From NCBI RefSeq assembly GCF_900112205.1, contig NZ_FOKW01000005.1, positions 62,001 through 126,000 of the forward strand: a stretch of DNA of 64,000 nt, written 5' to 3'. The translations under genes were made by a program, and so were the position numbers. The notes below the pieces were generated by a model. The model saw only the letters and a list, made by a program, of their open reading frames with translations. It was not told the DNA's origin and searched no databases. Shown piece after piece: positions 7,745 to 13,245 of this stretch. The DNA comes from Natronobacterium haloterrestre. GTDB taxonomy: Archaea; Halobacteriota; Halobacteria; Halobacteriales; Natrialbaceae. Every line of letters begins with the position of its first letter. Positions within the stretch are counted from its first letter, which is position 1.

Positions 7745-8335
7745 ATGAACGAAAAAACGGAGGAATTGCGCGATATCTTCACTGACGTCACCGACGGGGA
7801 GGAAACCGTCACCGAGTCCCAGCAGGACACCCGGGGCTCCCTCGATCGGGACGAGCGAACCGACGAGGAACGGCTGGAAAGCGTCGTCACGCAGATGCGT
7901 GAACGCTACGAGTTCGAGGTCGACCTCTCGAACGAAGAACTCATCACGATCGCCAGAGGGTTCTACGACGAGAAAACCGACGCCGAACTCGCCGAGGATC
8001 TCGACACCGATCCGGAGGAAATCTTCGAGGCGCGCATGTCGTTGCACCTGATCAGCGACGAAGACGCCGACGAGGTCGACCTGGCCGCGATCCGCGACCG
8101 CGACGAGGACGACGCGACGCTGGCCGAAGAGTACGGCGTCGACGAGGAGGCGATCCGGCGCTACCGGCGGGTCGCGAAGGCCGAAGACGAGTCCCGAACG
8201 GCGAACGACCGCTACCGGGACGAGTTCGACAGCATCCTCGCCGACGCGGAACTCTCCCAGCAGATTACCAGCGACGTCCGGGAGGACGGCCTCAAGGATG
8301 CGACCGAAGGGATGGAAACGGACGTCGACTTCTAG
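7745..8335 (+). CDS. Conditioned medium-induced protein 4-like acidic protein
   Basis: A 196-residue, very acidic soluble protein. The N-terminus (EKTEELRDIFTDVTDGEETV) and the overall layout match what haloarchaeal genomes call conditioned medium-induced protein 4; I recall this from annotation and cannot check it. Residues about 60-130 contain two short helix-turn-helix-like repeats (ELAEDLDTDPEEIFEARMSL and TLAEEYGVDEEAIRRYRRVA), suggesting tandem DNA-binding-like helical modules. There is no membrane segment. A TATA-like box at 7713 sets the start. The function is unknown; a regulatory role is inference from the helical repeats. Confidence 0.65.
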   Translation: MNEKTEELRDIFTDVTDGEETVTESQQDTRGSLDRDERTDEERLESVVTQMRERYEFEVDLSNEELITIARGFYDEKTDAELAEDLDTDPEEIFEARMSLHLISDEDADEVDLAAIRDRDEDDATLAEEYGVDEEAIRRYRRVAKAEDESRTANDRYRDEFDSILADAELSQQITSDVREDGLKDATEGMETDVDF

Positions 8336-8446
8336 TCTTTCGACGGGTTCGGCTTCGCCTTCGCTGTCTCGTTCTATCGACTCGAGCGTTCGGGTTACCG
8401 TACCGTCGAACGCGGGTTTTTGTACGATCGGGCGGCCAACCGGGGC

Positions 8447-9139
8447 GTGACCGTCGAGTACGTCTCGTTTACCGACCTGCGAACCGCGGCGTTCTGTCCG
8501 CGACAGTGTTACTACCGCCGAACCCGGCGGAACGACGGCGAGGACGATCCGACACCGCCGCCGGAAGTCACCGCCGTCCGTGGACTCGAACCCCGGTACG
8601 AGCAACTGCTCGCTGCCGACGACGACGTGCTCGAGCGCGAGCCGATCGAACCATCATCCGCCGCGTACCGGGACCGACTGGCGGCGACCCGCGACCGACT
8701 CGCCTCGGCTGGCCACTGGGAGCGGCTTCGCGATCCCGATGTACGGGACGCGTTCGTGACGGGCCGGGACTGTCGCGGAATCGTCCACAAGGTCCTCGCG
8801 GACCCGCTCGAGCCCGTCCTGGTCTCCGCGGGGCGGCCCCCGGAACGGGGCATCTGGCACCCCCAGTCGGTCCACGCCGTCGCGGCGGCGAAGGCGCTCG
8901 CCTGGGAGCGGAAAACGGTGGTCGATCGGGCCTGGATCGAGTACCCTGCCTACGGCGAGATCCGCTCGCTCGAGTTGACCACGCGCCGAAAAGCACGGTA
9001 CCGGCGGACGCTCCGGACGGTCCGGGAACTCGACGGCCCGCCGCCGCGGATCGACGACGAGGCGAAGTGTCGTACCTGCGAGTTCGCGGACGAGTGTGGC
9101 GTCCGAACCCGGTCGTTGCGGTCGCTGCTCGGGCTCTAG
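8447..9139 (+). CDS. Stand-alone Cas4-like Fe-S protein with degenerate nuclease site
   Basis: A 230-residue protein with the Cas4/RecB (DUF83) layout: an N-terminal cysteine segment (FCPRQCYYRR) and a C-terminal CxxC-x5-C cluster (CRTCEFADEC), which together would ligate a 4Fe-4S cluster. The nuclease motifs look broken. The metal-binding Asp expected in GxxD is His (GIVHKV), and the ExK motif reads LVS in PVLVSAG; a Gln near the QxxxY position remains. I prefer the GTG at 8447 because the family begins just before VSFTDLR; a TTG at 8420 is the alternative. No cas1, cas2 or CRISPR repeats occur in the window. Its stop overlaps that of the convergent tsaC-like gene. Confidence 0.75.
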   Translation: MTVEYVSFTDLRTAAFCPRQCYYRRTRRNDGEDDPTPPPEVTAVRGLEPRYEQLLAADDDVLEREPIEPSSAAYRDRLAATRDRLASAGHWERLRDPDVRDAFVTGRDCRGIVHKVLADPLEPVLVSAGRPPERGIWHPQSVHAVAAAKALAWERKTVVDRAWIEYPAYGEIRSLELTTRRKARYRRTLRTVRELDGPPPRIDDEAKCRTCEFADECGVRTRSLRSLLGL

Positions 9140-9717
9140 TCCGCGAGCCAGGCCTCGATCTCGTCGGCCATCGCGCCGCGGCGGTGGATCGTCTCGCTCG
9201 AGACGTCGACGACGGTACTTTCGGTGCCCTCGGTCCGGCCGCCGTCGAGGACGACCGCGGCCGCCTCCCGGATCTCGGAGCCGAGGTCCCCCGCGGTCCG
9301 GACGCTCTCCCGGCCGCTGACGTTCGCGCTCGTGGCCGTGATCGGCGTCCCGGCGCGTTCACAGAGCGCGAGCGCGAGGTCGTGGTCCGGCACGCGGACG
9401 CCGACCCGGTCCGCACCGGCAGTGAGGACGTCGGGGACCTCCTCGCCGCGGCGACAGAGGACGGTGACGGGACCGGGCAGGAACGTCGCCATGAACCGTC
9501 GCTCGCGCTCGGTCGCGCGGACGTGTTGCAGCGCCGCGGGCACCGAGGGGACGGCGAAGGAGATCGGTTTCGACCGATCCCGGTCTTTCGCCTCGAACAC
9601 GCGTTCGACGGCGTCGGCCTCGAGCGCGTCCGCCGCGAGCCCGTAGACGGTTTCGGTGGGGTAGACGACCAGCTCCCCGGATTCGATCGCGTCCGCCGCA
9701 CGGTCGATCTCGCTCAT
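9136..9717 (-). CDS. tsaC: Threonylcarbamoyl-AMP synthase, Sua5/YrdC/TsaC family
   Basis: Makes the activated threonylcarbamoyl used for t6A37 in ANN-decoding tRNAs. The 193 residues form a single YrdC domain without the C-terminal Sua5 extension. Visible motifs are YPTETVYGLAADA near the N-terminus, KDRDRSKPIS for the nucleotide site, and TSANVSG for threonine/ATP binding. The product is soluble. It converges on the Cas4-like gene, and the two stops share CTAG at 9136-9139. The t6A transfer enzymes (Kae1/Bud32) are not in this window. Confidence 0.92.
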   Translation of the reverse strand: MSEIDRAADAIESGELVVYPTETVYGLAADALEADAVERVFEAKDRDRSKPISFAVPSVPAALQHVRATERERRFMATFLPGPVTVLCRRGEEVPDVLTAGADRVGVRVPDHDLALALCERAGTPITATSANVSGRESVRTAGDLGSEIREAAAVVLDGGRTEGTESTVVDVSSETIHRRGAMADEIEAWLAD

Positions 9718-12196: not shown

Positions 12197-12241
12197 GTTC
12201 CGGGTCACGGTTCCCGGTTCCGGGTCACGGTTCTCGTTTTT
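12197..12241 (+). terminator. Direct repeat and T-run downstream of the CNNM gene
   Basis: A 17-base direct repeat (GTTCCGGGTCACGGTTC at 12197-12213 and 12217-12233) is followed by five Ts at 12237-12241. A T-run just after a stop fits an archaeal terminator on the plus strand, but the repeat itself is not required for that. Confidence 0.3.
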
Positions 12242-12276
12242 CGACGGTTGAGGACCGACAGCGAGGATCGGAATCT

Positions 12277-12402
12277 GGATCGGGATCGGGATCAGGATCG
12301 GGATCAGGATCGGGGTCAGGATCGGGATCAGGATCGGGATCAGGATCGGGATCAGGATCGGGATCAGGATCGGGATCAGGATCGGGATCAGGATCGGGAT
12401 CA
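12277..12402. repeat. 12-base GGATCAGGATCG microsatellite
   Basis: About ten near-perfect copies of a 12-base unit made of GGATCA and GGATCG hexamers, with one GGGGTCA variant. It fills the convergent spacer between the CNNM gene and the membrane-protein gene at 12400 and supplies that gene's stop codon. Open frames across it (GSGSGS, DRDQDRDQ, IPILIPIL) are by-products of the repeat. Confidence 0.95.
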
Positions 12403-13245
12403 GGGACTCGAGTCCACCAGTCCAGTGATCTCTTCGGCGACCGACGGCGGGACGACGATCCGTCTCGGTCCGGCGACGTACTGCCCGCCAGGCTGGGCGT
12501 AATCGAGGCTCAACACGGCGATGTCGCCGATTCGCCGAACTGAGACGTCTCGGATCACCTCGAGATCGATCGCTCGGTCGGGATCGTAGAGGTAGATCGT
12601 TCGCTCGGTGCGATCGACCGCGCCGACCGACCGCAGGAAGGATGCGAGCACGAGGGCGACGAGCGCGAGCGGGATCGAGATGGCGGCCAGGCCGGTAAAC
12701 GCTGCCGGGCCGAGTACGCCGCCGACTCCGTTGCCGGACGCCGCGACCGATCGACCGACCACGACCAGTCCGCCGATGAGCCCGCCCATCACGACGGTCC
12801 CGACCGCGGCGTCGAGCGCCTGCGACAGGCCGCGTCGGGACGGCGATCCCGACGGGACGGGGAGCGCCTCGAGGAGGCGCTCGAGGCGCTGGACGGAGTT
12901 TCCGGAGACGGCGAGTGCGAGAACCGTTACGGCGACGGCCGCGATCGTCGCGAGGAGGACCGTCTGGACGATCTCCATGGTCGCGCCGCCGGCTTGCTCG
13001 GTGAAGTCGTACAGTCGCCAGAACACCACGTTGGAGATGGCGGCGAAGAACGTGCCGACGCCGAGCGACCAGAGCAGGCGAACGGTCCAGGAGGTCGACG
13101 CGTCGCGGCGCCACTGGACGGTCCCGGGGTCGTCAGGATCGACGGGATCGACCGGATCGACCGGATCGACGGCGTCGGCAGGGGAACCTGCCTCGGAATT
13201 CGCGTTCGCGTCGGCGTTCCCGCTCGCAGTCGCGTCCTCGTCCAT
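12400..13245 (-). CDS. Uncharacterised four-helix membrane protein with DPVDPV repeat
   Basis: A 281-residue protein I do not recognise. The first 45 residues are acidic and disordered and include a VDPVDPVDP repeat encoded by 9-base units at 13136-13170. About four membrane segments follow (roughly residues 55-77, 85-112, 150-170 and 182-207). The C-terminal 75 residues look like a soluble beta-rich domain (RTIYLYDPDRAIDLEVIRDV) that could be PH-like. The TGA stop lies inside the GGATCA microsatellite, so the C-terminus depends on that repeat's phase. The convergent neighbour encodes a cation transporter, which says nothing clear about function. Confidence 0.75.
   Translation of the reverse strand: MDEDATASGNADANANSEAGSPADAVDPVDPVDPVDPDDPGTVQWRRDASTSWTVRLLWSLGVGTFFAAISNVVFWRLYDFTEQAGGATMEIVQTVLLATIAAVAVTVLALAVSGNSVQRLERLLEALPVPSGSPSRRGLSQALDAAVGTVVMGGLIGGLVVVGRSVAASGNGVGGVLGPAAFTGLAAISIPLALVALVLASFLRSVGAVDRTERTIYLYDPDRAIDLEVIRDVSVRRIGDIAVLSLDYAQPGGQYVAGPRRIVVPPSVAEEITGLVDSSP

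Follow-up and report, generated by a model that had tools for sequence, protein, structure and literature searches.

A class-wide haloarchaeal core gene encodes a Cas4-fold, probable Fe-S protein predicted to have lost its nuclease centre

Introduction

Cutting is usually seen as the task of Fe-S nucleases in the Cas4/AddB/Dna2 group. The RecC protein carries a dead nuclease-like domain, which provides a precedent for a catalytically dead domain with a structural role. Solo-Cas4 proteins of archaea are mainly vertically inherited, and conservation was taken to suggest that all Cas4 proteins are active (Hudaiberdiev et al. 2017, PMC5704561). That survey also cites the nucleocapsid protein of the virus TTV1 as a Cas4-like nuclease that has been inactivated. 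A 2025 study of Methanosarcina mazei is reported in an editorial (PMC13383573) to have found a solo-Cas4 with metal-dependent nuclease activity.

Here, a stand-alone gene of Natronobacterium haloterrestre is described from a stretch of 64,000 nt that was analysed as a whole and is called the window. The predicted fold and the order of elements of its product were like those of CRISPR-associated Cas4 (PF01930/COG1468; 7mi4, 8d3l, and SSO0001), and both contained a cluster site made of an N-terminal cysteine and a C-terminal CxxC-x5-C motif. However, the window protein had none of the D, ExK, and QxxxY motifs, the genome had no cas1, and the gene was a chromosomal core gene. Like the archaeal solo-Cas4 (PMC5704561), the protein and its relatives stood alone, were largely vertically inherited, and kept the Fe-S cysteines, but this pseudonuclease family lacked the ExK acid throughout and coexisted with an intact solo-Cas4 in one genome (G279). 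The nuclease domains of AddB/AdnA and Dna2, both Fe-S nucleases, had the fold of the window protein; these domains and that of RecC are parts of large helicase complexes, whereas the window protein was a stand-alone protein without a helicase domain. No published description of the pseudonuclease family was found in a literature search that left most subscription papers outside its range, and the nuclease assayed from M. mazei may be either an intact solo-Cas4 or a member of this family.

Results

Identification of a Cas4-family protein outside CRISPR

The features of the locus are collected in Table 1. The Pfam profile Cas_Cas4 (PF01930; DUF83) matched the protein marginally, mainly over its C-terminal half, with 25.7 bits against the curated cut-off of 22.7, and a PADLOC Cas4 model matched residues 6-218 (E 1e-9), whereas the NCBIfam equivalog TIGR00372 scored 28.8 and did not reach its cut-off of 65. 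An AlphaFold model built on 68 relatives was confident (pLDDT 94.4, pTM 0.89) and showed the Cas4 fold. The best solved match was Cas4/Cas1 7mi4 (Z 17.1, 175 residues aligned, rmsd 3.4), and further matches were 8d3l (Z 15.1) and SSO0001 (4ic1, Z 11.0), with AdnA (Z 11.8), Dna2 (Z 11.4), and also Exo5 and RecE next among them. By fold, profile, and cysteines, the protein is a member of the Cas4 family, but it is neither a Cas4 nuclease nor a CRISPR adaptation protein. The initial annotation had already denied it a place in CRISPR adaptation, and a search of the entire genome agreed, revealing neither Cas1 nor a second PF01930 gene, while the window contained no CRISPR-like array. The reading as a CRISPR adaptation gene was thus rejected. 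A short tandem repeat with 12-nt units (GGATCAGGATCG type) was located at 12241-12428 and is not a CRISPR.

Table 1. Coordinates of the gene, its predicted functional sites, and its neighbours in the window
Feature	Position	Strand	Remarks
Upstream neighbour, 196 aa, two predicted HTH-like modules	7745..8335	+	adjacent in most haloarchaea
Promoter-like element, TTTTGTA-N7-GCGGCCA type	8418..8438	+	just 5' of the start; sole match in the window, 0 in shuffles
Cas4-fold Fe-S pseudonuclease gene	8447..9139	+	230 aa; GTG start at 8447; stop included, ends at 9139
C17 codon, first predicted Fe-S ligand	8495..8497	+	76/76 haloarchaeal sequences, 57/58 other relatives
H114 codon, in place of the metal-binding Asp of GxxD	8786..8788	+	conservation, profile alignment, solo-Cas4 comparison
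L125-V126-S127 codons, in place of E-x-K	8819..8827	+	conservation, profile alignment, model, solo-Cas4 comparison
C208, C211, C217 (CRTCEFADEC), other three predicted Fe-S ligands	9068..9097	+	conservation
Convergent neighbour, Sua5/YrdC family (t6A biosynthesis)	9136..9717	-	adjacent in most haloarchaea, including divergent lineages

The gene is a core gene of Halobacteria

The gene was found in 290 of 292 near-complete Halobacteria genomes and in all 76 genera (76/76), nearly always in one copy, and a separate count found it in 144 of 145 genomes. Species of Natronococcus, Natrinema, Natrialba, Halorientalis, Natronomonas, Halolamina, and Halococcus are among the carriers. It is a near-universal single-copy core gene of the class and no oddity of this genome. 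The dN/dS values among the closest orthologue pairs were 0.1-0.35, so the gene is under purifying selection. The class-wide conservation and a dN/dS well below 1 ruled out a sequencing error or a pseudogene. The gene was split in one genome, carried early stops in two, and had no match in two others, and this rare breakage or absence indicated that it is not strictly essential everywhere. The split orthologue (L296/L297, G041 C25:257337-291380) was interrupted around residue 75, and the roughly 33 kb between its two parts included, as judged by eye, type I restriction-modification-like genes.

The catalytic residues are replaced in most haloarchaea

The initial annotation had proposed, from an alignment by eye, that the nuclease centre was dead while the cysteines were kept, pointing to the motifs GIVHKV and PVLVSAG. 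Both were present as written, at residues 111-116 and 123-129. In the profile alignment to Cas4/1 7mi4, the D-Y-K of the enzyme lay over L125-V126-S127 and the catalytic Asp over H114. The genome G279, which we take to be a Methanosarcina, encoded two paralogues, one an intact solo-Cas4 (GIVDEV...APLEYK...FQL), the other belonging to the pseudonuclease family (GVPSKL...VPSIMK...MHA), and the catalytic stretches of both could be aligned with GIVHKV...EPVLVS of the window protein. This comparison with an intact solo-Cas4 of the same phylum was ungapped (APLEYK / VPSIMK / EPVLVS) and, together with the profile alignment, ruled out an error of the alignment by eye. In the model, H114 was within the strand 109-117, L125 was within the strand 122-126, and S127 followed directly, so that H114 and L125/S127 occupy the D and ExK slots of the predicted Cas4 fold. 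The QxxxY motif was absent from the haloarchaeal family, and H143 and A147 stood in its place in the window protein.

The alignment of 76 distinct haloarchaeal orthologues showed how widely these replacements are shared. Position 125, the slot of the ExK acid, was hydrophobic in all of them (76/76), and Ser was found at the Lys slot, position 127, in 67/76. The change from Asp to His at GxxD proved prevalent (66/76) but not invariant, since position 114 also held Gln (3), Ala (3), Asp (2), Ser (1), and Gly (1). The loss was therefore common to the whole class and affected a near-universal single-copy gene, which gave the dead centre stronger support than it had at first. With all catalytic PD-(D/E)XK residues gone (H114, L125, S127, and H143/A147 in their slots), the window protein is predicted to be unable to cut DNA by the Cas4 mechanism.

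PD-(D/E)XK enzymes are generally known to relocate catalytic residues, and a protein that is still a nuclease, with an active site rearranged from other conserved acids (E165, D10, and D196), was considered. E165 was invariant in the 76 haloarchaeal sequences (76/76) and was Glu in 40/58 of the other relatives, and an unconventional metal site formed by it, or by D10 and D196, is conceivable. However, most haloarchaea had lost all canonical positions together, and the few conserved acids that remained were scattered over the strand 161-166, the N-terminal helix, and the loop before the Cys region, off the strand 2/3 site. A rearranged nuclease is thus considered improbable.

The cysteines of the cluster site are kept

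Four conserved cysteines of the Cas4-type cluster site were found in the haloarchaeal sequences: C17 in 76/76, C208 in 76/76, C211 in 75/76, and C217 in 76/76. The four-cysteine framework of the initial annotation stood, except that the second cysteine of FCPRQC, C21, was kept in 32/76; since it is not conserved, the ligand set consists of C17 and C208/C211/C217. These cysteines suggest that the protein binds an Fe-S cluster, and that this cluster would hold the N-terminal helix against the C-terminal lobe, an arrangement known from Cas4, AddB, and Dna2. A very long-branched haloarchaeal orthologue (L067, G045) had a shortened spacing of the C-terminal cysteines (CEECSQSC) and a Ser at the GxxD site; its sequence is compatible with further decay of the protein in this lineage.

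A redox or iron sensor that would signal its cluster state to another protein, for example the HTH protein encoded next to it, was also weighed. The cysteines were the best-kept positions in the whole family, the HTH-like gene was upstream in most haloarchaea, and peroxiredoxin-like and glutaredoxin-like genes were found downstream beyond sua5, two and three genes away. Yet the clusters of Cas4, AddB, and Dna2 are generally regarded as structural, the HTH gene did not appear next to the non-haloarchaeal relatives, and the Cas4-like gene had its own promoter-like element, which leaves the sensor an unlikely reading. The element in the window suggests a promoter of the gene's own and a very short leader or a near-leaderless message. 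A similar TATA-like box with GnGRCCA directly before the start codon was found in many orthologues, and the conserved GnGRCCA is possibly an initiator or an operator. The 196-aa HTH-like protein had no Pfam family and no PDB match by Foldseek at E <= 0.001; it was conserved among haloarchaea; elsewhere in the phylum, its conservation was weak (about 24-29% identity).

Relatives outside the class and the order of loss

The comparison set consisted of 58 relatives from the same phylum outside Halobacteria, presumably from methanogens and their kin. The cysteines were kept in 57-58 of the 58, the Asp in 45, and Lys or Arg at the Lys slot in 51, while the ExK acid was found in none; at QxxxY, the Q was present in 29 and the Y in 40. 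Three divergent haloarchaeal lineages (L066, L068, and L069) kept D and K and lacked E. In a quick tree with long branches, which was used for coarse grouping alone and whose internal order is not firm, these three branched below the remaining haloarchaeal forms, all haloarchaeal forms grouped together beside the other relatives, and the CRISPR-associated Cas4 formed a separate branch with a support of 100. The absence of the ExK acid from all 58 relatives, with Asp and Lys mostly kept outside the class, points to a stepwise erosion of the site on the Fe-S scaffold. Judging from the relatives, the divergent lineages, and the tree, we infer that E would have been lost first and across the phylum, and D, K, and QxxxY later, in most haloarchaea and in part in another lineage.

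Charge and gene neighbourhood

The window protein had a pI of 8.26, a net charge of +2, and 35 Arg, which is unusually basic for a haloarchaeon; the median pI of the window was 4.33. The pI values of 10 further orthologues ranged from about 5.9 to 9.9, and those of the divergent lineages from 5.1 to 5.3. The window protein was basic, in contrast to the acidic CRISPR-associated Cas4, of which two from haloarchaea had a pI of 4.9. Fourteen Arg/Lys columns were conserved at a level of at least 90%, and such residues in a basic protein of an acidic proteome point to nucleic-acid binding, in which the conserved Arg/Lys would make the contacts.

The haloarchaeal neighbourhood was mostly constant, with the HTH-like gene upstream and sua5 convergent. 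In the non-haloarchaeal relatives, the adjacent genes were PCNA in 10 loci, PriL in 9, and MCM with an Hjc-like gene in 7, four of which also had Orc1/Cdc6. These replication-gene neighbours were concentrated in few families and so represent few independent events; the adjacency, which was found outside haloarchaea alone, could possibly reflect chance or plain synteny. Three genomes from a single non-haloarchaeal family (L211, L282, and L284) had Sua5-MetAP-X316 directly upstream of the relative, which is a second, separate link to Sua5. A literature search for HVO_0252, HVO_0253, and HVO_0254 matched HVO_0253 alone, the sua5 gene, which is essential in Haloferax volcanii (PMC3017900). From synteny, the orthologue of Haloferax volcanii probably adjoins HVO_0253.

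Since the tRNA-modification gene sua5 was the most persistent neighbour, RNA-linked roles were weighed against DNA. A role in RNA metabolism or translation, such as tRNA or rRNA binding, would make the Sua5 link functional. It fits the adjacency of Sua5 across the class, the rearranged divergent lineages included, and the Sua5-MetAP pair of the non-haloarchaeal family, and the basic charge suits RNA and DNA equally. However, the fold family (Cas4, AddB/AdnA, Dna2, and Exo5) acts on DNA, the convergent orientation precludes co-transcription with sua5 in haloarchaea, and relatives in other families adjoin replication genes. The RNA role is therefore given a small but real chance. The fold family and the replication neighbours of the relatives lead us to infer DNA rather than RNA as the favoured ligand.

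Discussion

Our results are best explained by a structural or end-binding role, because the catalytic residues are absent and the cluster site is kept. We consider it somewhat more probable than an even chance that the window protein is a dead-nuclease Fe-S protein which binds nucleic acid without cutting it and serves replication or repair as a DNA-binding subunit or a scaffold. The step from binding to such a subunit, for which the dead nuclease-like domain in RecC offers a parallel, is the less certain one. The role in DNA binding, ends, or repair that was suggested at the outset is accordingly plausible from the present analysis. A Cas4-derived protein that lost catalysis and turned into the structural protein of a nucleoprotein has a precedent in the nucleocapsid protein of TTV1, although it is the capsid protein of one virus, unlike the haloarchaeal family, and the two are likened by description.

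A broader reading is put forward tentatively and is doubtful at present: a phylum-wide, Cas4-derived pseudonuclease family may be a non-cutting part of archaeal replication or repair, with catalysis lost step by step and the haloarchaeal form as the final stage. Such proteins could, for example, work together with PCNA/primase or Orc1-MCM at primed ends or forks, and the haloarchaeal form would have kept nothing but its Fe-S scaffold and its nucleic-acid surface.

Across a whole class, a core gene that retains the cluster site without the cutter would uncouple the role of the cluster from catalysis. The pseudonuclease family qualifies the published statement on the activity of Cas4 proteins (PMC5704561), and in haloarchaea that are amenable to genetics, Haloferax volcanii among them, it offers a testable, uncharacterised core gene.
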